A DNA stretch of 64,000 nucleotides. It comes from Roseomonas sp. E05 (lineage in GTDB: Bacteria > Pseudomonadota > Alphaproteobacteria > Acetobacterales > Acetobacteraceae). The stretch spans positions 1 through 64,000 of the forward strand of contig NZ_JASIRT010000011.1 in the NCBI RefSeq assembly GCF_030063475.1, in the 5' to 3' direction. Of the stretch, positions 38,722-61,089 are shown piece after piece; the stretch's first letter is position 1; the number at the start of each line of letters is the position of its first letter. The notes under the pieces were generated by a model. That model worked only from the letters and a program-made list of their open reading frames with translations. It was not told the origin of the DNA and searched no databases. Position numbers and translations under genes: made by a program.

Positions 38722-39702
38722 TCATTTCGTTTCGCGGATCTGCTTGACCAGTTCGGCCATCTTCGGATCGGCCGCGTACTTGTCGTAGACCGGCTTCATC
38801 AGCTCCGCCCAGGGAGAGCGATCCTCGACGTCCGTCACGACGGCGCCGCCGGTGATGACGCGCTCGCGCGAGACCTTCTCGCGCTCGGCCCAGAGCTGCC
38901 GCTGGTAGGTGGCGCTCTCACGCGCCGCGTCCTTCACCAGCTTCTTGTCGGCATCGTTCAGCCGGCGCCAGCGGGTCGCCGAGACAGCCAGGATCTCCGG
39001 CACGTTCGAATGCTCGTCGGTGATGTAGTACTTGGCCACTTCGAAATGCCGGGTGCTCTCGTAGGAGGGCCAGTTGTTCTCGGCGCCGTCGATCACGCCC
39101 GACTGCAGGCTGGTATAGACCTCGCCGAAGGGCAGCGGCGTCGGGTTGGCGCCCAGCGCCTTGACCAGGTCGATCCAGAGATCGGAGGTCTGCACGCGGA
39201 TCTTCATGCCCTTCAGGTCGGCCGGGCTGGTGACCTTGTTGCGGGTGTAGAAGCTGCGCGCGCCGGCGTCGTACCAGGCGAGCGGCACAATGCCGACCTT
39301 CTCCAGATCGGCGGCGATGGCGTCGCCCACCGGGCCATCGACGACATGATGAAGGTGCTCGACGTCGCGGAACAGATAGGGCAGCGTCAGCACCTGGGTG
39401 GTGGCGACCAGGTTGTTCAGCGGGCTCAGGTTGAACTCGGCGAAGTCGATCGAGCCGAGGCGCATCTGCTGGATGGCTTCATCCTGCTGGCCGAGCTGGG
39501 CGGAGTGGTAGGTCTTGAGTTTCAGGCGACCGTTGCTGCGCTGGGCGACCAGCTCGCTGAAGCGGTCCATGCCCTTGGAAACGGGGTAGTCCGGCGGATG
39601 GATGTTCCAGCCGCGCCACTCCTGCGCCTGCGAAGGGGTGGAGGTCCAGCCCAGCAGGGCGATGGCGGCTGCGGCCGCCCAATTCATCAGACGTCGTGTC
39701 AT
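38722..39702 (-). CDS. dctP: TRAP transporter substrate-binding protein (operon 2)
   Basis: A 326-residue periplasmic protein. The start at 39702 gives a clean signal peptide (MTRRLMNWAAAAAIALLGW ending in SQAQ); the open frame upstream is spurious. DLKGMKIRVQTSDLWIDLVK and the core GEVYTSLQSGVIDGAENNWP are the hallmark of DctP proteins, the latter in the sugar-acid-binding group. It would bind a hexuronate given the operon. A TTGACA hexamer (39759-39764) reads toward the gene, but no clear -10 is seen. Confidence 0.92.
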   Translation of the reverse strand: MTRRLMNWAAAAAIALLGWTSTPSQAQEWRGWNIHPPDYPVSKGMDRFSELVAQRSNGRLKLKTYHSAQLGQQDEAIQQMRLGSIDFAEFNLSPLNNLVATTQVLTLPYLFRDVEHLHHVVDGPVGDAIAADLEKVGIVPLAWYDAGARSFYTRNKVTSPADLKGMKIRVQTSDLWIDLVKALGANPTPLPFGEVYTSLQSGVIDGAENNWPSYESTRHFEVAKYYITDEHSNVPEILAVSATRWRRLNDADKKLVKDAARESATYQRQLWAEREKVSRERVITGGAVVTDVEDRSPWAELMKPVYDKYAADPKMAELVKQIRETK

Positions 39703-39855
39703 CGTACGTCCCCCCATATGATTTTCTTCAGCGGAGGTTGCGCCGGAAATAGGGAGGCTGTCAAACCCCCAAACAGCAATGTTCCCTCCAGCTTGCAGCG
39801 CGGCGCGGCCGCGCTCAGCATGCGGCCTGTCTGTTCCGCCGGAGCTAAACGCCGC

Positions 39856-41214
39856 ATGAGCCTGCCGATCACCTCCCTCGCCGCCGCCGCCGAAGCCCTC
39901 GCGGCCGGCCGCACCACCGCGCTGGCCCTGACGGAGGCGGCGCTGGCCCGCATCGCGGATCCCGCCGGCGAGGGCAGCCGCGCCTTCCTGGCGGTGCAGG
40001 CGGAAGCCGCCTGCGCCGCGGCCCGCGCCATGGACGGGCTGCGCGCCGCCGGCCGCGCCCCCTCCCCCTGGGCCGGCATCCCGATCTCGGTGAAGGACCT
40101 GTTCGACCAGCGGGGCGTGCCGACCCGCGCCGGCGCCGTGGCGCTGGAGGATGCACCGCCCGCCGCCGCCACGGCACCCGCCGTGGCCCGGCTGGAGCGC
40201 GCCGGCTTCGTCGTACTCGGGCGCACCAACATGGTGGAGTTCGCCTTCAGCGGCCTGGGCGTCAACCCGCATCACGGCACCCCGCGCGCACCCTGGGACC
40301 GCGCCACCGGCCGGCTGCCCGGCGGCTCCTCCTCCGGTGCCGCGGTCGCCGTGGCCGACGGCATGGGACTGGGCGCGCTGGGTTCGGACACCGGCGGCTC
40401 CTGCCGCGTGCCGGCGGCGCTCTGCGGCATCGTCGGCTACAAGCCGACCGCGAAGCGCGTGCCGCTGGAGGGCGTGCTGCCGCTCTCCGGTTCGCTCGAC
40501 AGCATCGGGCCGCTGGCCAATACCGTCGGCTGCTGCGCCGTGCTGCACGCGCTGATGGCCGGGGCGGAGGAGGCCGCGCCGCCGCCGGTCCTCTCGTTGG
40601 CCGGCCTGCGCTTCGGCCTGCCGGAGGAGACCTATCTCTTCGAGGGGCTGGAGCCGACCGTCGCCGAGGCCTTTGCACGCGCCGTGACGCGGCTGAAGGC
40701 AGCGGGCGCGCATGTCGAGCGTCTCGCCCTGCCAGAGTTGGCGGAGATCCCCGCGACCAATGCGGCGGGCGGTTTCACGGCGGCGGAGTCCTATGCCTGG
40801 CATCGCGGCCTCATCGCGCGGGCGCGCGACCGCTACGATCCGCGCATCCTGTCCCGCATCCTGCGGGGCGCCAGCATGAGCGCGGCGGATTACCTGGATC
40901 TGCACAAGGCCCGGAGCCGCATCATCGCCGCCGTGGCGGCCAGGACCGCATCCTATGACGCCGTGCTCTGCCCGACCACGGCGCTGACGCCGCCTGCCCT
41001 CAGCGCGGTGGACGAGGAGGCGGAGTACAACCGCATCAACCTGCTGCTGCTGCGCAATACGGCCGCCTTCAACTTCCTCGACCGTTGCAGCATCAGCCTG
41101 CCCTGCCACGCTCCGGGCGAGGCGCCGGTCGGGCTGATGCTGAGCGGCGCGCATGACGGCGATGCCGCCCTGTTCGCCACCGCAGCGGCAGTGGAGGCCA
41201 CCCTGCGCGGCTGA
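39856..41214 (+). CDS. Amidase-signature family amidase
   Basis: A 452-residue protein starting at the ATG at 39856. The catalytic triad is complete: K80 in ISVKDLF, S158 in GGSSSGAAVA and S182 in GSDTGGSCRVPA, with the usual 24-residue spacing between the serines. It hydrolyses a carboxylic amide; the family is too broad to name a substrate. It is divergent from TRAP operon 2 across about 150 bp and precedes a tRNA gene. Confidence 0.9.
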   Translation: MSLPITSLAAAAEALAAGRTTALALTEAALARIADPAGEGSRAFLAVQAEAACAAARAMDGLRAAGRAPSPWAGIPISVKDLFDQRGVPTRAGAVALEDAPPAAATAPAVARLERAGFVVLGRTNMVEFAFSGLGVNPHHGTPRAPWDRATGRLPGGSSSGAAVAVADGMGLGALGSDTGGSCRVPAALCGIVGYKPTAKRVPLEGVLPLSGSLDSIGPLANTVGCCAVLHALMAGAEEAAPPPVLSLAGLRFGLPEETYLFEGLEPTVAEAFARAVTRLKAAGAHVERLALPELAEIPATNAAGGFTAAESYAWHRGLIARARDRYDPRILSRILRGASMSAADYLDLHKARSRIIAAVAARTASYDAVLCPTTALTPPALSAVDEEAEYNRINLLLLRNTAAFNFLDRCSISLPCHAPGEAPVGLMLSGAHDGDAALFATAAAVEATLRG

Positions 41215-46374: not shown

Positions 46375-47193
46375 TCATGATGGGGAGGCGCAGCTCTTCG
46401 TCAGATGCATTCCCCGCCGCCGGCCACGCGCGACTGGTTCATCCCCCGGATGGGCGAGCCGCAGGGCGCCACGGCGCGCTCCGGGACCATACAGATAGTA
46501 CCCGATCAGCATCCGCGAGCCGCCCGAGGCGGGGAGGATGGGATTGACGCTGCGGCCCGCAGGCACTGCGACTGAGATCGGCTGCCCGGCGTTCTCGTTG
46601 CTGGGGAGGCCCGGACTGTGCAGAGCTTGATCCCGCACATCGTCATTGCGGGGTGTGGCAGAGGGCGTGGTGATGGCCCTATGCGCCGCCGCCTCGCAGC
46701 GGCCAGGGATCTCGGCCGCCAGATCCGCCAGTTGGCCGAGCGCCGCCTGCTTCATCAGGACCAGCAGATGCTCCTCGATCAGCTCGGGAGCAACAGCCTG
46801 CGCCCAGAGGTCGCCCATGGTCCGGTCGCCCATGGTCCGGTCGGGCATGCGGGCATTCTTGCGGATGATCGCGGCCCGCGTCTCATCCGCCCGCCCACCA
46901 CGCACCAGCTTTATGGGCGGGATCTGCAAGCCCTCATCAAACACCTCGCGCAGTTCGGGGCTGCGGGTCTTGTCGCCAATGTCGGGTGCATGCGCGGTGG
47001 AGGCGTTGAAGGCCACCAGCCTGCCGTTGCGGAGGATCGGCTTGGCCACGGGGTGGCCGGTGCTGAGCCAGGGGCCGCTGGTGATCAGCACCTCGCCCGG
47101 CGACAGCACCTCTTCCGGGAAGCGGCGGATGATGATGTGCTTCACCGTCTCCGGCAGCGTGTCGATGAAGTTGGGGATGCTTTCCGTCGAGAG
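46375..47193 (-). pseudogene. Decayed hydantoinase B gene fragment
   Basis: One open frame carries two blocks that match hydantoinase B/oxoprolinase. The N-terminal block is SPGEVLITSGPWLSTGHPVA, AFNASTAHAPDIGDKTRSPE, EGLQIPPIKLVRGGR and MGDLWAQ. The C-terminal block is PGLPSNENAGQPISVAVPAG, followed by NPILPASGGSR. The blocks are joined with most of the middle absent, and the key N-terminal metal-binding region before SPGEV is missing, so about 270 codons remain of some 550-650. No start or ribosome binding site is apparent. An intact paralogue lies at 51102-53078. Confidence 0.75.
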
Positions 47194-48176
47194 AGGGGCC
47201 GGGGCACATCCAGCATGTGTGGCCGTAACCCTCCTCTTCCCCGGGCGGCACATGCCCTTTCGAACCGTGTCCGGGTTGCGGCTGAGGTGGGCACTTTCCT
47301 GCCGTGCTGCCCCTCCTCCCGTCTTTGCAGGACATTGAGGCGCAGGCACCCGCACCCCGGCGAAGCACACAGCATCGTGTCTCTCCGCACCCAGAATGTT
47401 TATATTACGATAATATATCGTGCTTAAAGGGATTTTTATATAAATAGTGAATTTTTCTATATTTTTAGGAGAAAAAACAGCAATTTTCCAATCGTTCTGG
47501 CTTCGCGGGGGCCCCATTCGTCCCGCGAAAAGCCGGCTCTCCGCACCCGCGGGAGACTCCCAAGAAAGTTCTGCACTTTCTTCCGAGAGGCCCGATCGTA
47601 ACACGGCATTCCCCCACCCTGGCCTCCCATACGGCATGCAGAGGCTATCTCCTGGGTGAGCCCAGGAATTCTCCTGCCACTTCCCAACTATCCGCCACCC
47701 ATCAGCGGAACCAGGACCCTCTCTGGCTCCGTCCATGATCCAGGGCTGGTCCTCGGCGGCCGGTCCACACTGTGGCTGGCATCGCCACAAAATCCGGAAC
47801 CTGCCGGCGAAACTGAACCAAGAGCGCGCCCTTGCCACCGCTGCGGCAAGAGCCACAAGCCCTCCAGGAAAATCTTCTTTGTTTCGAATTCGTATATAAT
47901 CTAAAAAGTTATAATATTCACAATTTACAACAACACAAAGTGAATTTGTTTGTTCTGCTGCCGCGACATCTTCGCTTTGCCGCCGGGAGATCTCGTATTT
48001 TTTTATCCGTTCTCATGATGAGGAAAGATTATTCACACCCAGCGGAGCATTTCTTGCGTGAATGCAACAAATATTTGCTGCTCCGGCCCCGCGCAGCTGG
48101 CGCGCATGCGGCCGCCGGCTTCTGATCGCTGAGCCACCCGCCCGGATGGCGGAGGCTCTCTTCTGGAGGACCGTGA
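47194..48176. other. Gene-free segment with AT-rich patches upstream of the fusion gene
   Basis: This 983-bp region has no credible gene. Two AT-rich patches stand out against the high-GC genome: 47395-47490 and 47870-48075. The first holds the palindrome ACGATA-ATA-TATCGT (47407-47421). The second holds TATAAT hexamers at 47895-47900 and 47910-47915, possible -10 elements for the gene at 48177, though no good -35 is seen. The composition suggests foreign or regulatory DNA. Confidence 0.6.
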
Positions 48177-51014
48177 ATGGCGCGCTTACCGGCAGACCGG
48201 ACCCGTCATGGCAGCAGCGATGGACGCCAGGACCTCTTCAGCCGGATCGAGGCATTCGGCACCGCGCTGGCCGTCGTCGATGAAAGTGGCCGGTCATGGT
48301 CCCATGCGGAGTTTGCTGCGCATGCGGATGCCGGGTGCGCGCCACTGCCGCCAAAGCGCTGCTTCGTTGCGGTCGAGGCCGCAAACGCGCTGCACTCGCT
48401 CGCCGCCTATGTCGGCGCCCTCCGGGCCGGCCATGCGGTGCTGCTCCTCAAGGAGGGTGAAGGCGAGGGCTGCCCGCTGCTGGAGCGGTTCCGCCCCGAC
48501 TTCGTCTACCGGGCCGACAGGCAGGCGTGGCAGGAAGGATCCGCCGGGCCCGCGGAGGCCGATCTACATCCGGACCTGGCCGTCCTGCTGGCCACCTCCG
48601 GTTCCACGGGGGAGCCGAAGCTGGTGCGGCTCTCCAACACCAACCTGCTCTCGAATGCCCTGGCCATTGCCGAGTATCTCGGCTTCCGCCCCGGCGAGCG
48701 CGCGATCACCACGCTGCCGTTCCACTATTCCTACGGCATGTCCGTCATCAACTCCCATCTGGCGACAGGCGGCGCGCTCATCCTGAACCAGGACTCGGTC
48801 GCCGAGCCGGCCTTCTGGAGACGCTTCGAGGCCTTTGAAGCCACGAGCCTCGCCGGCGTGCCGCACAGCTTCGCGCTGCTGGAGCGGAGCGGCTTCCTGT
48901 CCAGGCCCCTGCCGGCTTCGCTGCGGTACATCACGCAGGCCGGCGGCAAGCTGCCGGAGGACAAGGTCCGGCGGTTCGCCGATCACGCCGAGGCGCAAGG
49001 CCGCCGCTTCTACGTGATGTATGGCCAGACCGAGGCGGCGCCGCGCATCGCCTACGTGCCTCCTGCGCTGCTGAAGCGGCATCCGGCTGCCATTGGCGTG
49101 CCGGTTCCAGGCGGCAAGATCGCGCTGCTGGATGAGCGCGGGGTGCCCATCGATGCCGCCAATGCCGAGGGTGAACTCGTTTATTCCGGCCCGAACGTGA
49201 TGATGGGCTACGCGCTGAGGCGCGAGGATCTGGGCCGGGGCGCGGAGCTGTCCGAGCTGCGGACAGGGGATCTGGCCGTCCGCAACGCGGAGGGGCTTTT
49301 CACCATCACCGGCCGGAAGAGCCGCTTCATCAAGCCCTTCGGGCTGCGTATCGGCCTGGATGACATCGAGGCGCGGCTGCGCGAGGCCGGCTTCGAGGGC
49401 GCGGCCACCGGAACGGACGACGGCCTGCAGATCGCGGTGGTGGCCCCCGCCTCGACCGAGGCGGTGGTGGAGCTGGTGCTGCGCCAGCATGCCCTGCCCG
49501 CCACGAGCGTTCAGGTCGCCCATGTCGCCGAAGTTCCCCGCCTGCCCTCCGGCAAGGTGGATTACGCCGGCATCCGCAGGGTGTTCGACGCCAGCGCCGC
49601 GCCCGCAGGCCAGGCCGGCCGGAACCTCTCCCTGCATGCGGCCTTTGCCGATCTGCTCGGCCGGCCCGATCTCGGACGGGATGAGTCCTTCGCATCGGCG
49701 GGGGGTGATTCGCTCAACTTCATCAACGCGCTGCTGCTGGTCGAGGAACGCCTCGGCTTCGCGCCCGAGGGCTGGGAGCGGATGACCATCTGCGAGCTCG
49801 AAGCCGCCAAGGCGCGCAAGCCGGATGCAGCAGAGGTCTCCGCCAGCCAGACGAAGCTGTTCTTCCTGGACCAGGTGCGCGCCAGCCTGATGCTGCTGGG
49901 CATCCCCTTCCACACCGCGCTGGCCTATACCGCCTTCCCCTGGATCGCCAAGGGCGGCGAGCCGTCATCCCTGCTGATGAACTTCTCCGAGTTCCTCAAC
50001 ACCTTCCGGATGCCCGCCTTCTTCCTGCTGGCCGGCTTCTTCGCCATGATGTTCGTCGACGAGAAGAGCCCGGCGAAGTGGTGGAGAAGCCGCGCCGTTC
50101 AGCTGGGCCTTCCGCTGTTCGCCACCATCCTCCTCATCAATCCCCTGCTGATGCTGGCGCGCGCGCTGAACACCGCACAGGATGCGGACGTCATGGCGAC
50201 CTGGCTCGCCCTGCTCACCACACCGGGGCAGCACTGGATCGAGCATGCGTGGTTCCTGGTCTTCCTGCTGGCCTACACGCTCGTGCTCGCCCTGTTGTGC
50301 GGCCTCTGGCGGGGAAGGCCGATCCGGCGCGACACCGCCGCCCTGGCGGAGCGCGTTCTCGCCAGCCGGACCAGTCTGGCCCTCACGGCCATCGCCGCCG
50401 GCCTCGCCAGCACCCTGGGCGTTGGCGTCCTGAAGGTCCTCGGCATCACCTTCGCCTACCGGCACATGCTCTATCTGAGCGAGATGGCCGCGCTGCTGCC
50501 GGTTTTCGCCATGGGCTGCCTTGTCGCCTCGCGCAGGGACTTCATCGGGCGCTTCGCTTCGGTTGACTGGTCGGCCATCGCCCTGGCGCTCGGCGGGGCC
50601 GTCATCCTGACGAACATCCAGTTGCGCGAGGAAACGCTCTACCGCGTGGTGACCTTCTTCCTCGTGCCCATCATGGGCATCTACTGGTCCAAGCTGCTGT
50701 GCTTCGTGGCCCTGCGCTGGTTCGACGCGCCGAACCGCTGGACGCGCCTCCTGGTCAACGCCTCCATGACCGTCTACCTGATCCACATCCTCTTCATCGT
50801 GTTCCTCGCGAATGCCTTCGCCTATGTGCAGTTGCCGTCCCTGGTCGAGTTCCTGATCATCACCGGGCTGGCCGGCGCGCTTTCGCTGGGCTTCCACCAG
50901 ATCGTGGCGCGCCATTGGCTGCTGATGCTGCTCTTCACCGGAACGGCCAGGGGCCGGCGCGGGACGGCGGCTCCGGGGCGCCAGCCTGCTGGCCGCATCG
51001 TGCGTTCCGCATAG
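48177..51014 (+). CDS. Adenylation-carrier-OpgC acyltransferase fusion protein
   Basis: A 945-residue three-module protein. Residues 1-465 form an AMP-forming adenylation domain: SGSTGEPK (141-148), YGQTEAAPR (282-290), RTGDLA (362-367), GRKSRFIKPFGLRI (379-392) and the catalytic Lys in LPSGK (K460). Residues about 485-545 form a phosphopantetheine carrier with GGDSL (Ser512). From about 558 a membrane acyltransferase begins FFLDQVRASLMLLGIPFHTA (His579), then RMPAFFLLAGFF, with about ten helices and a basic tail. The membrane part closely resembles OpgC/MdoC, which succinylates periplasmic glucans. It should activate an acid, tether it to its own carrier and pass it across or onto a surface glycan. 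Substrate and acceptor unknown. Confidence 0.88.
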   Translation: MARLPADRTRHGSSDGRQDLFSRIEAFGTALAVVDESGRSWSHAEFAAHADAGCAPLPPKRCFVAVEAANALHSLAAYVGALRAGHAVLLLKEGEGEGCPLLERFRPDFVYRADRQAWQEGSAGPAEADLHPDLAVLLATSGSTGEPKLVRLSNTNLLSNALAIAEYLGFRPGERAITTLPFHYSYGMSVINSHLATGGALILNQDSVAEPAFWRRFEAFEATSLAGVPHSFALLERSGFLSRPLPASLRYITQAGGKLPEDKVRRFADHAEAQGRRFYVMYGQTEAAPRIAYVPPALLKRHPAAIGVPVPGGKIALLDERGVPIDAANAEGELVYSGPNVMMGYALRREDLGRGAELSELRTGDLAVRNAEGLFTITGRKSRFIKPFGLRIGLDDIEARLREAGFEGAATGTDDGLQIAVVAPASTEAVVELVLRQHALPATSVQVAHVAEVPRLPSGKVDYAGIRRVFDASAAPAGQAGRNLSLHAAFADLLGRPDLGRDESFASAGGDSLNFINALLLVEERLGFAPEGWERMTICELEAAKARKPDAAEVSASQTKLFFLDQVRASLMLLGIPFHTALAYTAFPWIAKGGEPSSLLMNFSEFLNTFRMPAFFLLAGFFAMMFVDEKSPAKWWRSRAVQLGLPLFATILLINPLLMLARALNTAQDADVMATWLALLTTPGQHWIEHAWFLVFLLAYTLVLALLCGLWRGRPIRRDTAALAERVLASRTSLALTAIAAGLASTLGVGVLKVLGITFAYRHMLYLSEMAALLPVFAMGCLVASRRDFIGRFASVDWSAIALALGGAVILTNIQLREETLYRVVTFFLVPIMGIYWSKLLCFVALRWFDAPNRWTRLLVNASMTVYLIHILFIVFLANAFAYVQLPSLVEFLIITGLAGALSLGFHQIVARHWLLMLLFTGTARGRRGTAAPGRQPAGRIVRSA

Positions 51015-51101: not shown

Positions 51102-53078
51102 TCAGACGCCTCCGCCGCGCTCGGCCAGCAGCCGCGCGCCGATCCGCGCCATCTGCTCTGCAACGCCGAGGCCGGCTCCCTCCCCCGCCGCCACGGCGGC
51201 AAAGAAGCGGCGCTTCAGGAAATGCCGCCAGCGCACGGGCTGCGCCATCAGGAACTCCGTCAGCAGGGCGTACCGCTCGGGCGACCAGACCGCCTCGAAC
51301 TCCCGCCGGGCCTGGCCCAGGTCGAAATGCGCCGGCGGTGATCTCTCTCCACGCGCGGCACGCAGCGCGGCGGTCGCCGCCCCGTCCACCTTCCCTCCGC
51401 GCAACGCCACGCCGTAAGCCTCCCGCGCGGCCGCCTCGGAGATGAAGCCGCTGCGCAGATCGGCCAGGACGAGCGCCGGGTCACGCGTGAACGGATCGCC
51501 ATAGCCGCCGGCCCCGGCGCCCACCACGCGCACGATGTCGCCCGGCTCGCAGCGCAGGATGTCGGTATTGCCGAGGCTGAGTTCCGCCGGCGTGCCGGGA
51601 TTGCGCAGGAAGCGCGAGGTCGTGCCGGCCCGGCCGCCCATCACCCCCCAGGAGGCGAAGACCGAACGGTTGCGGTTGCGCGCCGTCACCACGGTGTCGG
51701 GCGAGAAGACCTGGAACTCCATCACCGCCGAGAGCCCGCCGCGATACCGTCCGGGGCCGGCACTGTCGGGCCAGAGCCCGTAGCGCCGAAAGAGGATCGG
51801 AACCTCGGCCTCGCTGATCTCGATCGGCGTGTTCTTCAGGAAGGCCTGCGCGCCGCCCGCGCCGTTCGGGCCGTCGGAGACCGGCGTGCCGCCGCCGCCG
51901 CCGCCCACCGGGCCGATCGAGGCCATCACCGGCCGCCCGTCCCATCCGGTGGTGCGCACATTCATGATCGAGTTGCCGCCCGGCGAGGTGGCCGGCATCT
52001 GCTCCGGCAGCGCCAGCGAGAAGGCACCGAAGGTGACGATCTGCGTCAGCATGCAGGTCAGCGAGCGCATGCCCACGGCGGCCGGCGCCACGGCGTTGAC
52101 CACTGTGCCTTCCGGCATGATGGCGCGCGCCGCGCGCAGCGTGCCGGCGTTCAGCAGCAGCTCGGGGTTGAGCGTGAAGAGCACATAGGTCAGCCCGACC
52201 AGGCAGAGCGGATGCCGCTCCCGCCCTCCGGTCGGCATGTTGAGCGAGGAGGCGACCTGCGGGTCGCTGCCGGTGTAGTCGAGTTCCACCGTCTCGTCCC
52301 GCACGCGGAGCGTCAGCGCGATGCGGCAGGGCACGCCGCCCTCGCCGTCCTCGTCGGCGAAGTCGGCGAAAAAGTACTCGCCGTTGGGAATGCCGCGGAT
52401 GACGGCACGCGCCTGCTCCTCGGCATAGTCGAGCATCTGGCGGATGCCGTCGCGGAAGGCCTCGGTGCCGAAGCGGGCGATGATCTCGTGGATCTTGCGC
52501 TCGCCGATGTTGACCGAGGCGATCTGCGCCTTGAGGTCGCCCCAGTTCTGCTCCGGCGCGCGGACATTGAGCCGCATGATGCGCAGCACGTCCTCGTTCA
52601 TCTGGCCGCGGCGCACGAGCCTGAGCGGCGGCACGCGCAGCCCCTCCTGCTCGATCTCGGTCAGCGAGCGCGAGAGCGAGGCCGGCACCGCGCCGCCCAC
52701 ATCGGTGTTGTGGATGTGGCCGACGACGAAGCAGACGATCTCGCCGGCGTGGAAGACGGGCTTCCAGATATGGATGTCGGGCGTGTGGGTGGCGACATTG
52801 CCGCTGTAGGGATCGTTGGTGATGCAGATGTCGCCCTCCTCGTAGGAGCCGATCATCTCCAGCACCGGGCCGTAGTCGATGCCGCTGTACCAGGGCGCGC
52901 CGAACTGGCGCGGCGAGGCAAAGGCCAGGCCGTCCGGCGTCACCAGCGTGCAGGAGAAATCCTCGGTCTCCTTGACGAAGGCGGAATGCGCGGTGCGCAT
53001 CAGGGTGAAGGCCATGGCATCGGCGGCGGCGCCGCAATGGTTGGCCAGGATCTGCAGGCTGCGGCGGTCGATCGGCAT
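51102..53078 (-). CDS. hyuB: Hydantoinase B / oxoprolinase family protein
   Basis: A 658-residue protein, somewhat longer than usual. The N-terminus has the family metal-site region (LANHCGAAADAMAFTLMRTA), EGDICITNDPYSGNVATHTP and VCFVVGHIHNTDVGGAVPAS, and the middle has ELDYTGSDPQVASSLN. It pairs with HyuA to hydrolyse a cyclic imide such as hydantoin, N-methylhydantoin or 5-oxoproline with ATP. It starts 12 bp after the hyuA stop. A GGAGGCAGAAGG ribosome binding site precedes the ATG. The C-terminal ~100 residues after the AYG(V/L) region are a plausible lineage-specific extension. Confidence 0.9.
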   Translation of the reverse strand: MPIDRRSLQILANHCGAAADAMAFTLMRTAHSAFVKETEDFSCTLVTPDGLAFASPRQFGAPWYSGIDYGPVLEMIGSYEEGDICITNDPYSGNVATHTPDIHIWKPVFHAGEIVCFVVGHIHNTDVGGAVPASLSRSLTEIEQEGLRVPPLRLVRRGQMNEDVLRIMRLNVRAPEQNWGDLKAQIASVNIGERKIHEIIARFGTEAFRDGIRQMLDYAEEQARAVIRGIPNGEYFFADFADEDGEGGVPCRIALTLRVRDETVELDYTGSDPQVASSLNMPTGGRERHPLCLVGLTYVLFTLNPELLLNAGTLRAARAIMPEGTVVNAVAPAAVGMRSLTCMLTQIVTFGAFSLALPEQMPATSPGGNSIMNVRTTGWDGRPVMASIGPVGGGGGGTPVSDGPNGAGGAQAFLKNTPIEISEAEVPILFRRYGLWPDSAGPGRYRGGLSAVMEFQVFSPDTVVTARNRNRSVFASWGVMGGRAGTTSRFLRNPGTPAELSLGNTDILRCEPGDIVRVVGAGAGGYGDPFTRDPALVLADLRSGFISEAAAREAYGVALRGGKVDGAATAALRAARGERSPPAHFDLGQARREFEAVWSPERYALLTEFLMAQPVRWRHFLKRRFFAAVAAGEGAGLGVAEQMARIGARLLAERGGGV

Positions 53079-55254: not shown

Positions 55255-55375
55255 CTGGCGGCTGTGCCGAAAGCGATTGGACCACCGCCGCGCCCCGGCC
55301 TGATTCTTGCTGCCGTGAATCGAAGTCCGGCATGGAGGGGGCAGGGATGGCGTGGCGGTTGCAGGCAGGTTTCCG

Positions 55376-55690
55376 ATGAATCCAGCGCCGCCCCCCCTGC
55401 TGCGCCGGCTGGGCGAGGCGCATCGCCGGCCCGTGGCATTCACCCTCGATGGGCAGCCCGCGACGGCCCTGGAAGGCGACACGCTGCTCACCGCCATCCT
55501 CACCAACGCTTCCGCGCTGCGCCTGTCGGAATTCGGCGACGGGCCGCGCGCCGGCTTCTGCCTGATGGGCGCCTGCCAGGATTGCTGGGTCTGGACCGAG
55601 GCGGGCACGCGGCTGCGCGCCTGCGGCACACCCGTCACCGCGGGCCTGCGGATCATGACGAAGGAGGCCCCATGGCCCAGCCTCGGGTGA
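55376..55690 (+). CDS. 2Fe-2S subunit of an amine/amino-acid dehydrogenase (HcnA/OoxA-like)
   Basis: A 104-residue ferredoxin-like protein starting at the ATG at 55376. The cluster loop is GFCLMGACQDCWVWT with a later Cys in RLRACGTPV, giving the Cx4-5CxxC plus distal Cys pattern. Such small subunits accept electrons from the FAD subunits in hydrogen-cyanide-synthase-like, opine-oxidase or D-hydroxyproline dehydrogenase complexes. It overlaps the next gene by 19 nt. Confidence 0.85.
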   Translation: MNPAPPPLLRRLGEAHRRPVAFTLDGQPATALEGDTLLTAILTNASALRLSEFGDGPRAGFCLMGACQDCWVWTEAGTRLRACGTPVTAGLRIMTKEAPWPSLG

Positions 55691-57057
55691 CCATCGTCGG
55701 CGCCGGCCCGGCCGGGACGCGCGCCGCCGAGTTGCTGGTCGCCGCCGGGCTGCATCCGCTGCTGGTGGACGAGGCGGCCGACAATGGCGGGCAGATCTAT
55801 CGCCGCCAGCCCGCCGGCTTCCGGCGCCCGCCCGCAGCGCTCTACGGCACCGAGGCCGGCCGCGCGACGGCCCTGCATGCCAGCTTCGATGCGCTGCGCG
55901 GCCGCATCGAGCACTGGCCGGAGAGCCTCGCCTGGAACCTCCGGGATGGCGTGCTGCACGTGCTGCGCGGGGAGCGCAGCCATGCCTTGCCCTTCGATGC
56001 CCTGATCCTGGCCACCGGCGCCACCGACCGGCTGATCCCGCTGCCCGGCTGGACGCTGCCCGGCGTCTTCACCCTGGGCGGTGCACAGATCGCGCTGAAG
56101 GCGCAGGCCTGCGCCATTGGCCGGCGGGTCGCCTTCCTCGGCTCGGGGCCGCTGCTCTATCTGGTGGCGGCGCAATACGCCAAGGCGGGGGCGGAGGTGG
56201 CGGCGGTGCTCGACACCGCGCCCGCCGGTGCGCGCTGGCGTGCCCTGCCGCTGATGGCCGCGCGCCCCGCCCTGCTGGCCAAGGGCGCGGCGCTGCTCGC
56301 CCGGCTGCGCCGCGCCGGAGTGCCGGTGCATCGCGGCGTGACGCCGCTCCGCCTGTGCCCAGACGCCTCCGGCGCGCGGCTCGGCGGCATCGCCTTCCGC
56401 CAGGCCGACGGCCGCGAGGCCGTGCTCGACTGTGACGCCTCCGGCCTCGGCTGGCACCTGCGCGCCGAGACGCAGCTCGCCGGCCTCGCCGGCTGCGGCT
56501 TCGACTTCGACCGGGCGAGCCGGCAATGGCTGCCGCGCATCGACGCGGATGGCCGCAGCGAGGTGCCGGGCCTTTACATGGCCGGTGACGGCGTGCGGCT
56601 GCTGGGCGCGGATGGCGCCGAGATCGCGGGCCGGCTGGCGGCGCTTGCGGTGCTGCGGGATCTCGGCTTCGCCCCGCCGGCGGGCGCTGATCCCGCCGCG
56701 CTGCGCCGCCGACGCCAGGCGATGGACCGCTTCCGCCGCGGCCTCGCCATCGCCTTCCCCTGGCCGGCACAGCTCGTCGCCGGCCTGCCGGACGAGACGC
56801 TGGTCTGCCGCTGCGAGGCCATCACCGCGGGCGAGTTGCGCCGCAGCGCAGGCGCCCTCGATGCGCCCGAGGTGAACCGCGCCAAGGCCTTCAGCCGCGT
56901 CGGCATGGGGCGCTGCCAGGGGCGGATGTGCGGGCTGGCGGGCGCCGAGATCCTGGCCGCCGCGCGCGGCGTGCCGGTGGAGGAGGTCGGCCGGCTGCGC
57001 GGTCAGGCGCCGGTGAAGCCGCTGCCCGTCGCCGCTCTCCGGGAGGAGGAGGCATGA
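55672..57057 (+). CDS. FAD/NAD(P)-type subunit of an amine/amino-acid dehydrogenase (HcnB-like)
   Basis: A 461-residue protein with VTIVGAGPAGTRAAELLVAA at the N-terminus and a second dinucleotide fold (RRVAFLGSGPLLYLVA). A C-terminal BFD-like cysteine cluster follows (LVCRCEAITAGELRR and GRCQGRMCG). That cluster probably holds a second 2Fe-2S. This is the layout of the middle subunit of HcnABC-like, octopine-oxidase-like and hydroxyproline dehydrogenase complexes. An AAGGAGG site precedes the ATG, which lies inside the 2Fe-2S gene. Its stop overlaps the next start. Confidence 0.88.
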   Translation: MAQPRVTIVGAGPAGTRAAELLVAAGLHPLLVDEAADNGGQIYRRQPAGFRRPPAALYGTEAGRATALHASFDALRGRIEHWPESLAWNLRDGVLHVLRGERSHALPFDALILATGATDRLIPLPGWTLPGVFTLGGAQIALKAQACAIGRRVAFLGSGPLLYLVAAQYAKAGAEVAAVLDTAPAGARWRALPLMAARPALLAKGAALLARLRRAGVPVHRGVTPLRLCPDASGARLGGIAFRQADGREAVLDCDASGLGWHLRAETQLAGLAGCGFDFDRASRQWLPRIDADGRSEVPGLYMAGDGVRLLGADGAEIAGRLAALAVLRDLGFAPPAGADPAALRRRRQAMDRFRRGLAIAFPWPAQLVAGLPDETLVCRCEAITAGELRRSAGALDAPEVNRAKAFSRVGMGRCQGRMCGLAGAEILAAARGVPVEEVGRLRGQAPVKPLPVAALREEEA

Positions 57058-58190
57058 GCGACAACCGCGCCGACGTGCTGGTGCTGGGCGGCGGGCTGAT
57101 GGGCGCCGCCACCGCCTTCTTCCTGCGCCGCCGGGGCCTCTCCGTCATCCTGCTGGAGCGCGGGCTGGTCGGGCAGCAGGCGAGCGGCGTCAATTTCGGC
57201 AATGTCCGGCGGCAGGGGCGCTTTCCGCCACAACTGCCGCTGGCCAACCGCTCCCGTGCCCTCTGGGGCCAGCTGCCGGAACTGCTCGGCGAGGATATCG
57301 AGTTCCTGCCCAGCGGCCATCTGCGCGTCGCCTATACCGACGAGGCGGCCGGCATGATGGAGGCCTATCGCGAGGCTGCCCGCCCCTACGGGCTGAAGCT
57401 TGAGGTGCTGAGCGGCAACGCGGTGCGCGCGCGCTTCCCCTGGCTCTCGGCGGAGGTGCGCGCCGGCTCCTGGTCGGCCGAGGACGGGCACGCCAATCCG
57501 CGCCTGGCCGCCCCCGCCTTCGCCCGCGCCGCGCGGCGCGCCGGCGCGCGTATCGAGGAGAACACCGAGGTGCTCGCCATCGAGCGCGAGGCCGCCGGCT
57601 GGCGGCTCGATGCCGCCGATGGCCGCGCCTTCCGCGCCCCGGTGCTGCAGGTCTCGGCCGGCGCCTGGGGCGGGCGGCTCGCCGCGCAGCTCGGCGAACC
57701 CGTGCCGATCGTCGTGCGCGGGCCGCAGATGGGCGTGACGGAACCGGTGCCCTATGCCCTCACCCCCGTCCTCGGCGTGACGGCGACGGTGGTCGGCGAG
57801 GTGATCTACCTGCGGCAGGTGACGCGCGGCAACATCGTCTTCGGCGGCGTCGGCCACGGGCCGGCCGACCTCGACACGTGCCGCGCCCGCGTCGAGCCCG
57901 CCATCACGCTGCGGCAGTTCATCCAGCTCCGCCGCATGGTGCCGGCGCTCGGCGCGCTGCGGATCATCCGCACCTGGAGCGGCATCGAGGGCTATATGCA
58001 TGACGAGATCCCGGTGATGGGGCCGAGCGCCCGCTGGCCGGATCTGTTCTACGCCTTCGGCTTCTGCGGCGCCGGCTTCCAGCTCGGCCCGGGCGTGGGC
58101 GACGTGATGGCCGAGCTGATCGCGGCGGGCCGGAGCACGACGCCGATCGAACCCTTCCACATCGCCCGCTTCGCCGCCAAGGCCGCATGA
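57054..58190 (+). CDS. FAD-dependent catalytic subunit of an amine/amino-acid dehydrogenase (HcnC-like)
   Basis: A 378-residue DAO-family flavoprotein with VLVLGGGLMGAATAFFLRRR at the N-terminus. It has EDGHANPRLAAPAFARAARR, a central VSAGAWGGRLA, and EGYMHDEIPVMGPS near the C-terminus. It would oxidise an amino acid, opine or D-amino acid and pass electrons through the preceding two subunits. The start sits at the 4-nt overlap with the previous stop, behind GGAGGAGGAGG. The neighbouring oligopeptide-binding protein and D-aminopeptidase suggest a D-amino acid or imino acid substrate. Confidence 0.88.
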   Translation: MSDNRADVLVLGGGLMGAATAFFLRRRGLSVILLERGLVGQQASGVNFGNVRRQGRFPPQLPLANRSRALWGQLPELLGEDIEFLPSGHLRVAYTDEAAGMMEAYREAARPYGLKLEVLSGNAVRARFPWLSAEVRAGSWSAEDGHANPRLAAPAFARAARRAGARIEENTEVLAIEREAAGWRLDAADGRAFRAPVLQVSAGAWGGRLAAQLGEPVPIVVRGPQMGVTEPVPYALTPVLGVTATVVGEVIYLRQVTRGNIVFGGVGHGPADLDTCRARVEPAITLRQFIQLRRMVPALGALRIIRTWSGIEGYMHDEIPVMGPSARWPDLFYAFGFCGAGFQLGPGVGDVMAELIAAGRSTTPIEPFHIARFAAKAA

Positions 58191-58666
58191 TCCCGCCGCC
58201 GCTGCCCTTCGAGACCATGATCCTGGAGCGGCGGCACGGCCCCTACCGCCTCTCCACCGACCGCGCGCTGCTCGATCTCGACGCGATCCACCGCTTCCTC
58301 GCGGAGGACTCCTACTGGGCGCGCGGCATCGGGCGCGGGCTGGTGGAGCGCGCCATCCGCGGCTCGCTGCCGCTCGGCGCCTATGACGCCGGGGGGCGGC
58401 TGGCCGGCTTCGCCCGCGCCGTCACCGACGGCGCCGTCTTCGGCTATCTGCGCGACGTCTTCGTGCTGCCGGCGCATCGCGGCCGCGGCCTCGGGCGCGC
58501 ACTCACCGCCGCCCTGCTGGAGCACCCCGACCTCGCCGGCCTGCGCAACTGGATGCTGGCGACCGAGGATGCCCACAGCCTCTATGCCACGCTCGGCTTC
58601 GCCCCGGTCGCCAACCCCGCGCGCCTGATGCAGCGCCGGCGCCCACCGGACGCCCCCGCTTCCTGA
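58187..58666 (+). CDS. GNAT-family N-acetyltransferase
   Basis: A 159-residue protein with the GNAT core: VTDGAVFGYLRDVFVLPAHR followed by GRGLGRALTAALL, containing the R/Q-x-x-G-x-G/A acetyl-CoA loop. NWMLATEDAHSLYATLGFAP forms the last strand-helix. It would acetylate a small amine or amino acid. It overlaps the previous gene by 4 nt and lies 13 bp before the binding-protein gene, so it is part of the same operon, perhaps for detoxifying an intermediate. Confidence 0.88.
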   Translation: MIPPPLPFETMILERRHGPYRLSTDRALLDLDAIHRFLAEDSYWARGIGRGLVERAIRGSLPLGAYDAGGRLAGFARAVTDGAVFGYLRDVFVLPAHRGRGLGRALTAALLEHPDLAGLRNWMLATEDAHSLYATLGFAPVANPARLMQRRRPPDAPAS

Positions 58667-58679
58667 AGGAGACCCGACC

Positions 58680-60260
58680 ATGCCGCTGAAGCCCCGCCAC
58701 CGGCCGGCCATTCCGCTGGCCCTCGCCGCCCTGCTCCTGGCCACGCCCGCCCTGGGACAGTCGATCCTGCGGATGGGCATCAGCGCGGCGCCGGGCTCGG
58801 TGGACCCGCATTTCAACCAGGGCACCTCCACCCAGACCCTGACCTACCATGTCTTCGAGACCCTCACCGACCGGCGTCCCGATTCCAGCCTCGCCCCCGG
58901 CCTGGCGCTGAGCTGGAAGCCGGTCGCGGACGATGTCTGGGAGTTCAGGCTGCGCCCCGGCGTGCGCTTCTCCGATGGCCAGCCCTTCACCGCCGACGAC
59001 GTCGCCTTCACCATCGCCCGCGTGCCGAAGGTGCCGAACGCCACGGCGAGCTATGCCGGACAGACCCGCTCCATCCGGCGCGTCGAGGTGGTGGACCCGC
59101 TGACGGTGCGCTTCCACACCGATGGCCCCTCGCCCAACCTGCCGATCGACCTTGCCGTGGTCGGTATCGTCTCGCGCCATGCCGGCGAGGGCGCCACCAC
59201 CGAGGACTACAATGCCCTCAAGGCCGCCATCGGCACCGGCCCCTTCATCCTGCGCTCCTTCGTGCCGGGGACCGAGGCGAAGCTGGAACGCAACCCAGGC
59301 TGGTGGGGCCCGAAGCCGGACTGGGACGCGGTGGAGTTCCGCTACATCGCCAATCCCGGCGCGCGCTCGGCGGCGCTGCTCTCCGGCGGCGTGGACCTGA
59401 TCGACCTGCCTTCGCCCAACGACCTGCCGCGCTTCCGCAACGACCCCGGCATCTCCCTCTTCTCCACCCAGGGGCTGCGGCTGGTCTATCTGGCGCCCAA
59501 CCAGGCGGCCGAGGTGGCGCCCTTCATCACCGGCAATGACGGCCAGCCGCTGCCGCGCAATCCGCTGCGCGACCAGCGGGTGCGGCGCGCGCTCTCGGTC
59601 GCCATCAACCGCACCGGCCTCACCGAGCGGGTGATGCAGGGCACCGCCGAGCCGAACGGCCAGTTCATGCCCCGGGGCACCTACTCCTACAACCCCGGCA
59701 TTCCCGTGCCGCCCTACGACCCGGCGCTGGCGCGGAAGCTGCTGGCCGAGGCCGGCTATCCCGACGGCTTCCGCATGACGCTGCACGTGGCGCAGAACGC
59801 CCGGCCGACCGACCCGGTCTCGGCCCAGGCGATCGCGCAGATGTGGACCCGCGCCGGCGTGCAGACCGAGGTCGAGACCATGCCGCTTTCCGCCTACAGC
59901 CCGCGCGCCGCGAAGATGGAGTTCGCCGCCACGATGTGGGGCTGGGCCAGCCCGGGCCATGCCGGCCATCCGCTGATCAGCGTGCTCAGCAGCTACAACC
60001 GCGAGCAGCTGACCGGCAGCTTCAACCGCGAGGGCTATTCCAACCCAGCGCTCGACGCGCTGGTCCAGCGCGCCGTCACCACCCTCGACGACGGCGCGCG
60101 CGAGCGGCTGTTCCGGGAAGCGATGGCCATGGCGATGGAGGACGTCGCCGTCATTCCGCTCTACCAGCTCACCAATATCTGGGCGACGCGCAAGGGCATC
60201 ACCTACGAGGCCAGCGGCTACGACTACACCCGCGCCGTGCTGGCGCATCAGGCGCGCTGA
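58680..60260 (+). CDS. ABC transporter substrate-binding protein, family 5 (peptide/opine type)
   Basis: A 526-residue periplasmic protein with a signal peptide (RPAIPLALAALLLATPALG, ending in Q). The SBP-family-5 core is present: SVDPHFNQGTSTQTLTYHVF, WEFRLRPGVRFSDGQPFTAD, NPLRDQRVRRALSVAINRTG. It binds di/oligopeptides, opines, nickel or similar solutes. No matching permease or ATPase genes are in the window, so it either serves a distant transporter or a sensing role. The next gene, a DppA-type D-aminopeptidase, supports a peptide cargo. A GAAGGAGA site precedes the ATG. Confidence 0.92.
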   Translation: MPLKPRHRPAIPLALAALLLATPALGQSILRMGISAAPGSVDPHFNQGTSTQTLTYHVFETLTDRRPDSSLAPGLALSWKPVADDVWEFRLRPGVRFSDGQPFTADDVAFTIARVPKVPNATASYAGQTRSIRRVEVVDPLTVRFHTDGPSPNLPIDLAVVGIVSRHAGEGATTEDYNALKAAIGTGPFILRSFVPGTEAKLERNPGWWGPKPDWDAVEFRYIANPGARSAALLSGGVDLIDLPSPNDLPRFRNDPGISLFSTQGLRLVYLAPNQAAEVAPFITGNDGQPLPRNPLRDQRVRRALSVAINRTGLTERVMQGTAEPNGQFMPRGTYSYNPGIPVPPYDPALARKLLAEAGYPDGFRMTLHVAQNARPTDPVSAQAIAQMWTRAGVQTEVETMPLSAYSPRAAKMEFAATMWGWASPGHAGHPLISVLSSYNREQLTGSFNREGYSNPALDALVQRAVTTLDDGARERLFREAMAMAMEDVAVIPLYQLTNIWATRKGITYEASGYDYTRAVLAHQAR

Positions 60261-60264
60261 GCCG

Positions 60265-61089
60265 ATGCGCCTCTACATCTCCGCCGACATCGAGGGCATC
60301 GCCGGCGTCGTCTCGCGCCAGCAGACCCTGCCCTCGGGCCTGGAATACGAGGCGGCGCGACGCTGGATGACCGACAGCGTCGCCGCCGCCGCCGAGGCCG
60401 CCTTCGCCATGGGCGCCGAGGAGGTGGTGGCCTGCGACAGCCATCTCGCCTCGCAGAACATGATGATCGACCGCCTGCCGGAGCGGGTGCAGCTCATCCG
60501 TGGCGTGCGCCGGCCGCTCGGCATGGTGGCCGGCATCGACGAGGGGCGCTTCGACGGCGCCCTCTTCATCGGCTGGCACACCGGCAGCACGCACCGCTCC
60601 GGCGTGCTGGGGCACACCATGCGCGGCCTGGTGCTGCGCGAGGTGCGGCTCAACGGCCGGGTGGTCTCGGAGGCCGGCTTCTACCACCCGCTGCTCGGCC
60701 AGTTCGGCGTGCCGCTGATCGGCATCTCCGGCGACGACGCCTTCGTCGAGGAGACGCGCGGGCTGGTGGGCGATGTCGAGGCGGCGGTGGTGAAATGGGC
60801 CTATGGCCATCTCGCCGCGCGCAGCCTGACGCCGGCCGCGGCGCAGGCGGAGATCGCCGCCATGACGCGCCGCGCCCTCGGGCGGCTCGCCGACTTCCGC
60901 CCGGCCCCAATCGAAGGACCGATCGCGCTGGATGTGGTGTTCAAGCACCGCCCCCCGGCTGACACCCTCGCGCTGCTGCCGCAGGTGGAGCGGCTCGACG
61001 CCTACAGCATCCGCGTGATGGTGCCGGACATGCGCGGCGCCTCGAACTTCATGGCCGTCGTGACCGGCTACGACCCGACGGAGCAGTAG
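60265..61089 (+). CDS. M55-family D-aminopeptidase (DppA-like)
   Basis: A 274-residue zinc peptidase beginning MRLYISADIEGIAGV. Expected zinc ligands are D8, E10, H60, H105 and E136, with a further His at 117, in the order known from Bacillus DppA. It would release D-amino acids from peptides, probably in the cytoplasm after uptake. It starts 4 bp after the binding-protein gene, so the two are co-transcribed, and its 3' end overlaps the convergent LysR gene by 41 bp. Confidence 0.9.
   Translation: MRLYISADIEGIAGVVSRQQTLPSGLEYEAARRWMTDSVAAAAEAAFAMGAEEVVACDSHLASQNMMIDRLPERVQLIRGVRRPLGMVAGIDEGRFDGALFIGWHTGSTHRSGVLGHTMRGLVLREVRLNGRVVSEAGFYHPLLGQFGVPLIGISGDDAFVEETRGLVGDVEAAVVKWAYGHLAARSLTPAAAQAEIAAMTRRALGRLADFRPAPIEGPIALDVVFKHRPPADTLALLPQVERLDAYSIRVMVPDMRGASNFMAVVTGYDPTEQ

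Follow-up and report, generated by a model that had tools for sequence, protein, structure and literature searches.

A candidate carrier-fed acyltransferase in Roseomonas sp. E05: fusion of an adenylation domain, a carrier domain, and an OpgC-like AT3 domain

O-antigen, capsule, peptidoglycan, and periplasmic glucans are all modified by AT3 enzymes, for which acyl-CoA is the described donor. The question raised by the locus described here is whether an enzyme of this type could receive its acyl group from a carrier domain of its own polypeptide. The locus lies in a window (the whole stretch of 64,000 nucleotides of Roseomonas sp. E05 DNA that was analysed), in which one gene encodes an adenylation (A) domain, a carrier (T) domain, and an OpgC-like AT3 membrane domain. 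The combination of activating, carrying, and transferring an acid is known from separate cell-wall-decorating proteins and was not found described for an AT3-type membrane enzyme. No description of an A-T-AT3 protein was found in the open-licence PMC papers searched, and an earlier description outside that set is possible.

The fusion gene and its family

The gene is a single stop-free frame of 945 codons (Table 1), and three Pfam domains were detected in its product, i.e., AMP-binding (PF00501) at residues 125-345 (140.8 bits against a cut-off of 29.9), PP-binding (PF00550) at residues 486-528 (24.7 bits against 20.8), and Acyl_transf_3 (PF01757) at residues 563-904 (94.4 bits against 31). 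The PP-binding match is partial (profile positions 3-47 of 67), which counts against a carrier that feeds the AT3 domain. The translation contains the A-domain motifs A3 (LATSGSTGEPK), A7 (LRTGDL), A8 (GRKSRFIKPFGLRIGLDDIE), and A10 (LPSGKVDY, with K460), the carrier motif GGDSL with S512, and the AT3 motif LDQVR...GIPFH, corresponding to R568-X10-H579. Thus, the one-frame A-T-OpgC-type fusion claimed in an earlier note on this DNA holds, with all three domains above cut-off and every quoted motif present. Conservation of Ser512 and K460 in homologues, on which that note had made its reading depend, was also found: K460, S512, R568, and H579 are invariant across 65 aligned fused A-T-AT3 proteins. 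In the AlphaFold model (m1040798bb4a6; mean pLDDT 83), the A domain is well modelled and the AT3 domain moderately so (about 60-95). Structural matches from Foldseek and VIA are mostly to the A domain, which acyl-CoA synthetases and A domains match with Z of about 38.

Table 1. Features of the fusion gene (window coordinates) and of two sister loci
Feature	Position	Strand	Basis
Complete gene, 945-aa adenylation-carrier-AT3 (OpgC-like) fusion	48177..51014	+	ORF translation, Pfam, matching layout in L039-L041
Adenylation domain, residues ~20-470, catalytic Lys460	48234..49586	+	Pfam AMP-binding
Ser185-Tyr186-Gly187, site of the amino-group-binding Asp in amino-acid A domains	48729..48737	+	VinN and LgrA alignments
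Arg290 of the pocket (invariant), at the column of VinN Arg331 (GrsA position 331)	49044..49046	+	Alignments
Carrier (PP-binding) domain, residues ~483-548	49623..49820	+	Pfam; helices in model
Ser512, predicted phosphopantetheine attachment site	49710..49712	+	Invariant in all carrier-bearing module classes
OpgC-like AT3 membrane domain, residues ~551-925	49827..50951	+	Pfam, NF003014, AT3 tree
R568-X10-H579, AT3 catalytic motif in TMH1	49878..49913	+	Invariant in 65/65 fused proteins
Broken RXXR, Arg639 ... Gln642, AT3 cytoplasmic side	50091..50102	+	Alignment with OpgC-like proteins
A-T-SGNH gene followed by DltB-like MBOAT	L042:5986-10056, L047:6025-10174		

A search by domain and architecture, as the earlier note had suggested, recovered the same layout in three further loci (L039-L041). 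The R. pecuniae protein (L039; 935 aa) contains the same three domains and is 66% identical across residues 12-941, and the layout is shared, at 37% identity, by proteins of two Asticcacaulis species (genome scan). An assembly artefact, a frameshift separating the modules, and a chimera are very unlikely because all of these proteins match in layout; a sequencing artefact is rejected on the same ground, and the gene is a real fusion in a real protein family. It is also highly improbable that the fusion is degenerate and inactive in Roseomonas sp. E05. It was not found in three sampled genomes of the same genus and may therefore be a transient import, but its catalytic motifs are all intact and R. 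pecuniae retains the entire protein.

The A-T module is patchy yet widespread according to the genome scan and profile searches, occurring in Alphaproteobacteria (Rhizobium, Ensifer, Mesorhizobium, Rhodobacterales, Sphingomonadales, and Caulobacterales), Actinomycetota (mycobacteria, Nocardia, Nocardioides, and Microbacteriaceae), and some Beta- and Gammaproteobacteria (Oxalobacteraceae and Vibrionaceae), which rules out a fusion family exclusive to Roseomonas sp. E05. The Rhizobium etli member is named merely 'AMP-binding protein' in RefSeq. In a profile search, the full module was found in four of 385 sampled Alphaproteobacteria. Among 200 sampled Acetobacteraceae genomes, a full-length match was obtained in the window's own genome only, which makes it probable that the fusion gene was gained by horizontal transfer.

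The activated acid and the acyl donor

The nearest named family of the A domain is ligase_PEP_1 (TIGR03098), an exosortase-associated acyl-CoA ligase, whose model includes neither a carrier nor an AT3 domain and is matched at 154 bits, well under its cut-off of 592. With regard to the substrate, no acidic residue is present at Ser185-Tyr186-Gly187, and the same columns read S/C, Y/F, and G across all module classes, with a single exception (Ala at 185). The position equivalent to Asp235 of GrsA differs by two residues between the VinN and LgrA alignments, and neither candidate is acidic. The A domain thus lacks the acidic residue that marks the amino-acid-activating type (NRPS or DltA), and the acid activated by the window protein is probably not an amino acid, because the amino-group-binding Asp is missing in all aligned members. 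It has been described that A domains for alpha-hydroxy acids have Ala or Gly where this Asp would be, and the same review covers K330/R331 of VinN (PMC11253843), the second of which aligns with Arg290. Much of the A-domain pocket is common to modules with different outputs, suggesting that the acid, lacking an amino group, is identical or similar for most of the family; the specificity code is read here solely as excluding the amino group, and dicarboxylates, hydroxy acids, and keto acids are all candidates.

On the side of the transferase, AT3 enzymes have R-X10-H in TMH1, and their TMH3 carries RXXR on its cytoplasmic side; these four residues are reported to be essential, and in simulations Arg14 and Arg74 of OafB touch the 3'-phosphate of CoA (PMC9833829). 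RXXR is highly conserved in AT3s, yet it is no defining criterion of PF01757. In the alignment, each of 13 free OpgC-like proteins, E. coli OpgC among them, retains both arginines, whereas both occur at the aligned columns in none of the 65 fused AT3s, a count that overstates independence since the fused proteins are mutually related. A pattern search gave RXXR in 19/19 free AT3 controls and in 0/4 AT3s near module-only genes. The loss may be partly inherited within clades; it is nevertheless seen in several separately placed lineages, and the Asticcacaulis fusions lack the opposite arginine from that missing in the window protein. One fused protein (L065) has RXXR one residue out of register, which counts against the argument from RXXR loss. 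Three further arginine columns (628, 846, and 908) that appeared lost in a first comparison gave no contrast in the larger set, and the claim is confined to RXXR.

Loss of RXXR is what would be expected if the donor changed from CoA to the carrier, because carrier-bound phosphopantetheine has no 3'-phosphate. On the other hand, CoA use is possible because Arg568, likewise a proposed contact of that phosphate, is retained. The AT3 domain might thus have kept an OpgC-like use of succinyl-CoA, with the A-T module being a passenger or serving another reaction. Retention of R568-X10-H579 and of most residues conserved in OpgC, as well as the fact that free OpgC is a succinyltransferase (PMC9558356), would fit such an arrangement, but it is improbable, since the fused forms have a broken RXXR, a motif credited in part with binding the CoA 3'-phosphate, and the same A-T module is coupled with several different transferases. 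The alignments accordingly provide strong but circumstantial evidence for a donor switch from CoA to the carrier in the fused AT3s. A candidate enzyme for arming the carrier is encoded in the genome, in which one gene of the ACPS family, AcpS-sized (140 aa), is the sole phosphopantetheinyl transferase found.

Interchangeable output modules and comparison with known systems

The A-T module is joined to an OpgC-like AT3 domain in the window protein and in L039, L040, and L041, to AT3 domains of a separate clade in the majority of other members, and to an SGNH/GDSL domain in seven loci (L042, L047, L133, L134, L138, L139, and L140). In addition, module-only genes (L061 and L087; ~560 aa) have no fused transferase, and separate AT3 genes lie nearby. 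The fused AT3s occupy separate positions in the AT3 tree: the AT3 domain of the window protein nests among free OpgC-like proteins, most of which are congeneric (support values of 100/100 for the OpgC-like clade and 96/97 for the genus group), and 19 other fused AT3s form a clade of their own. In the A-T tree, the OpgC-like fusions are split between two places.

An MBOAT gene directly follows the A-T-SGNH gene in 7/7 loci. For the two MBOATs that were fully read, the DltB model TIGR04091 gives 159-166 bits (cut-off 375), and both terminate in FIYFQF, fitting the acyl-tyrosine hexapeptide FXYXXF. In DltX and PatA, the Tyr of this acyl-shuttle motif is the residue to which the acyl group is attached (PMC12148441). 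Together, the A-T-SGNH protein and its MBOAT cover the functions of DltA, DltC, DltD, DltB, and DltX, and these Gram-negative loci resemble a Dlt-type system in condensed form.

The window protein would share adenylation, a carrier thioester, and transmembrane transfer with the Dlt system of teichoic acid D-alanylation (DltA, DltC, DltB, DltX, and DltD), and its sister proteins pair the A-T module with an SGNH domain and a DltB-like MBOAT bearing FXYXXF. It differs in having AT3 instead of MBOAT and SGNH, in being a single polypeptide, and in lacking the amino-group Asp; its score with the DltA equivalog TIGR01734 is 67.4 bits against a cut-off of 559.85. The single-polypeptide, Dlt-like system proposed in the earlier note is therefore upheld in part: the A-T-SGNH genes beside an FIYFQF-bearing MBOAT and the loss of RXXR are in its favour, and the amino acid that the note had allowed as the transferred group is not supported. 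A similar ligase-carrier-transferase logic is found in AlmE-AlmF-AlmG, which makes glycyl lipid A, but with separate proteins, glycine as the substrate, and a different transferase. Compared with the OpgC/MdoC succinyltransferase, the window protein has an OpgC-like AT3 domain with R-X10-H retained but differs by its own activation and carrier domains and its broken RXXR, and it scores 192.7 bits with the OpgC/MdoC equivalog NF003014, under the cut-off of 338. The AT3-SGNH acyltransferases OafB and OatA have R-X10-H in common with it and are described as acyl-CoA fed (PMC9833829), with no activation or carrier domain.

Relatives of the A domain that stand alone adjoin LuxE- and LuxC-family genes in four loci (L099:260-9597, L111, L112, and L115), the first of which additionally encodes a carrier as a protein of its own, together with an SDR and the PseI/PseC pseudaminic acid genes.

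Genomic context, acceptor, and biological meaning

The fusion gene stands alone amid catabolic genes, and its neighbours are uninformative on function. They encode PutA (an assignment based on sequence alone), hydantoinase A/B, oxidoreductases, a peptide-binding protein, and a D-aminopeptidase, and no MBOAT or SGNH partner was found among the neighbours tested. Upstream, an ORF at window 46375-47856 (-) contains only the middle part of Hydantoinase_B (profile 53-241 of 519) and is probably a gene remnant, an intact copy being located at 51102-53078 (-). The content of the region 55264-61089 suggests an amino-acid or peptide catabolic cluster, with two oxidoreductases, one of the pyridine nucleotide-disulphide type bearing a BFD-like [2Fe-2S] domain and the other FAD-dependent (DAO), as well as a binding protein of the peptide type and a D-aminopeptidase (Peptidase_M55). 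In an 810-aa ORF at 38722-41154 (-), the DctP binding-protein match is confined to residues 519-794, and the true start probably lies much further in.

As to the acceptor, a periplasmic glucan is plausible. OpgG is encoded in the genome, but on a different contig, and three free OpgC-like proteins are already present. The main rival reading is that the acyl product of A-T-AT3 proteins is small and either diffusible or lipid-linked, such as an iron-binding metabolite, which would leave the carrier-fed chemistry unchanged and replace the glycan by a small-molecule acceptor. It draws on the resemblance of the A domain to NRPS and acyl-CoA ligase domains and on the actinobacterial relatives, where a gene for an SfuA-like ferric-iron-binding protein occurs in the fetched flank of 19 of 33 Actinomycetota loci, in most cases accompanied by genes for an ABC permease and ATPase (SfuA/YfuA-type; for example L090:2433-6064 and 18 other loci). 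Three rhizobial loci contain a weaker relative of this protein. For the ABC genes of these relatives, an assignment to 2-aminoethylphosphonate transport (NCBIfam, below cut-off) was replaced by ferric iron after a solved-structure search. Proximity to iron importers is left unexplained by a glycan role and counts against glycan decoration, and an iron-related role is favoured for the actinobacterial clade because of the ferric-iron-binding gene in these 19 loci. However, no iron genes lie beside the window gene or its L039 counterpart, the AT3 domain of the window protein is OpgC-like and nests with same-genus free OpgC-like proteins, and characterised AT3s mainly act on extracytoplasmic glycans (PMC9558356), so that a small-molecule product is unlikely here.

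It appears probable, then, that the fusion is a self-loading, carrier-fed transmembrane AT3 acyltransferase with Dlt-like logic. In the proposed topology, the cytosolic A domain would adenylate a small carboxylic acid that probably lacks an amino group and load it as a thioester onto the phosphopantetheine arm predicted at Ser512. The carrier, which would be tethered on the cytosolic side where the AT3 domain begins, would put this arm, instead of acyl-CoA, into the AT3 pore, and R568 and H579 would pass the acyl group to an extracytoplasmic acceptor, which may be a periplasmic glucan or another envelope glycan. The overall scheme would resemble DltA-DltC-DltB/D, with AT3 performing the transmembrane step.

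For the family as a whole, the balance tilts slightly towards a widespread, undescribed class of envelope-acylating systems, in which one conserved A-T module would supply a single kind of acid, not an amino acid, to membrane transferases that are interchangeable, either carrier-fused AT3s that have abandoned CoA or, in Gram-negative bacteria, condensed Dlt-like pairs of A-T-SGNH and MBOAT. If these sister pairs work in this way, they would represent a carrier-dependent MBOAT/SGNH pathway outside Dlt; the MBOAT/SGNH pathways other than Dlt are described without a carrier (PMC12148441). The contrast in RXXR makes the proposed CoA-binding role of this motif directly testable. A carrier-fed AT3, if true, would be a second donor type for AT3 enzymes, would account for the loss of RXXR in a defined subset of them, and would offer a one-polypeptide system for studying acyl passage across the membrane.
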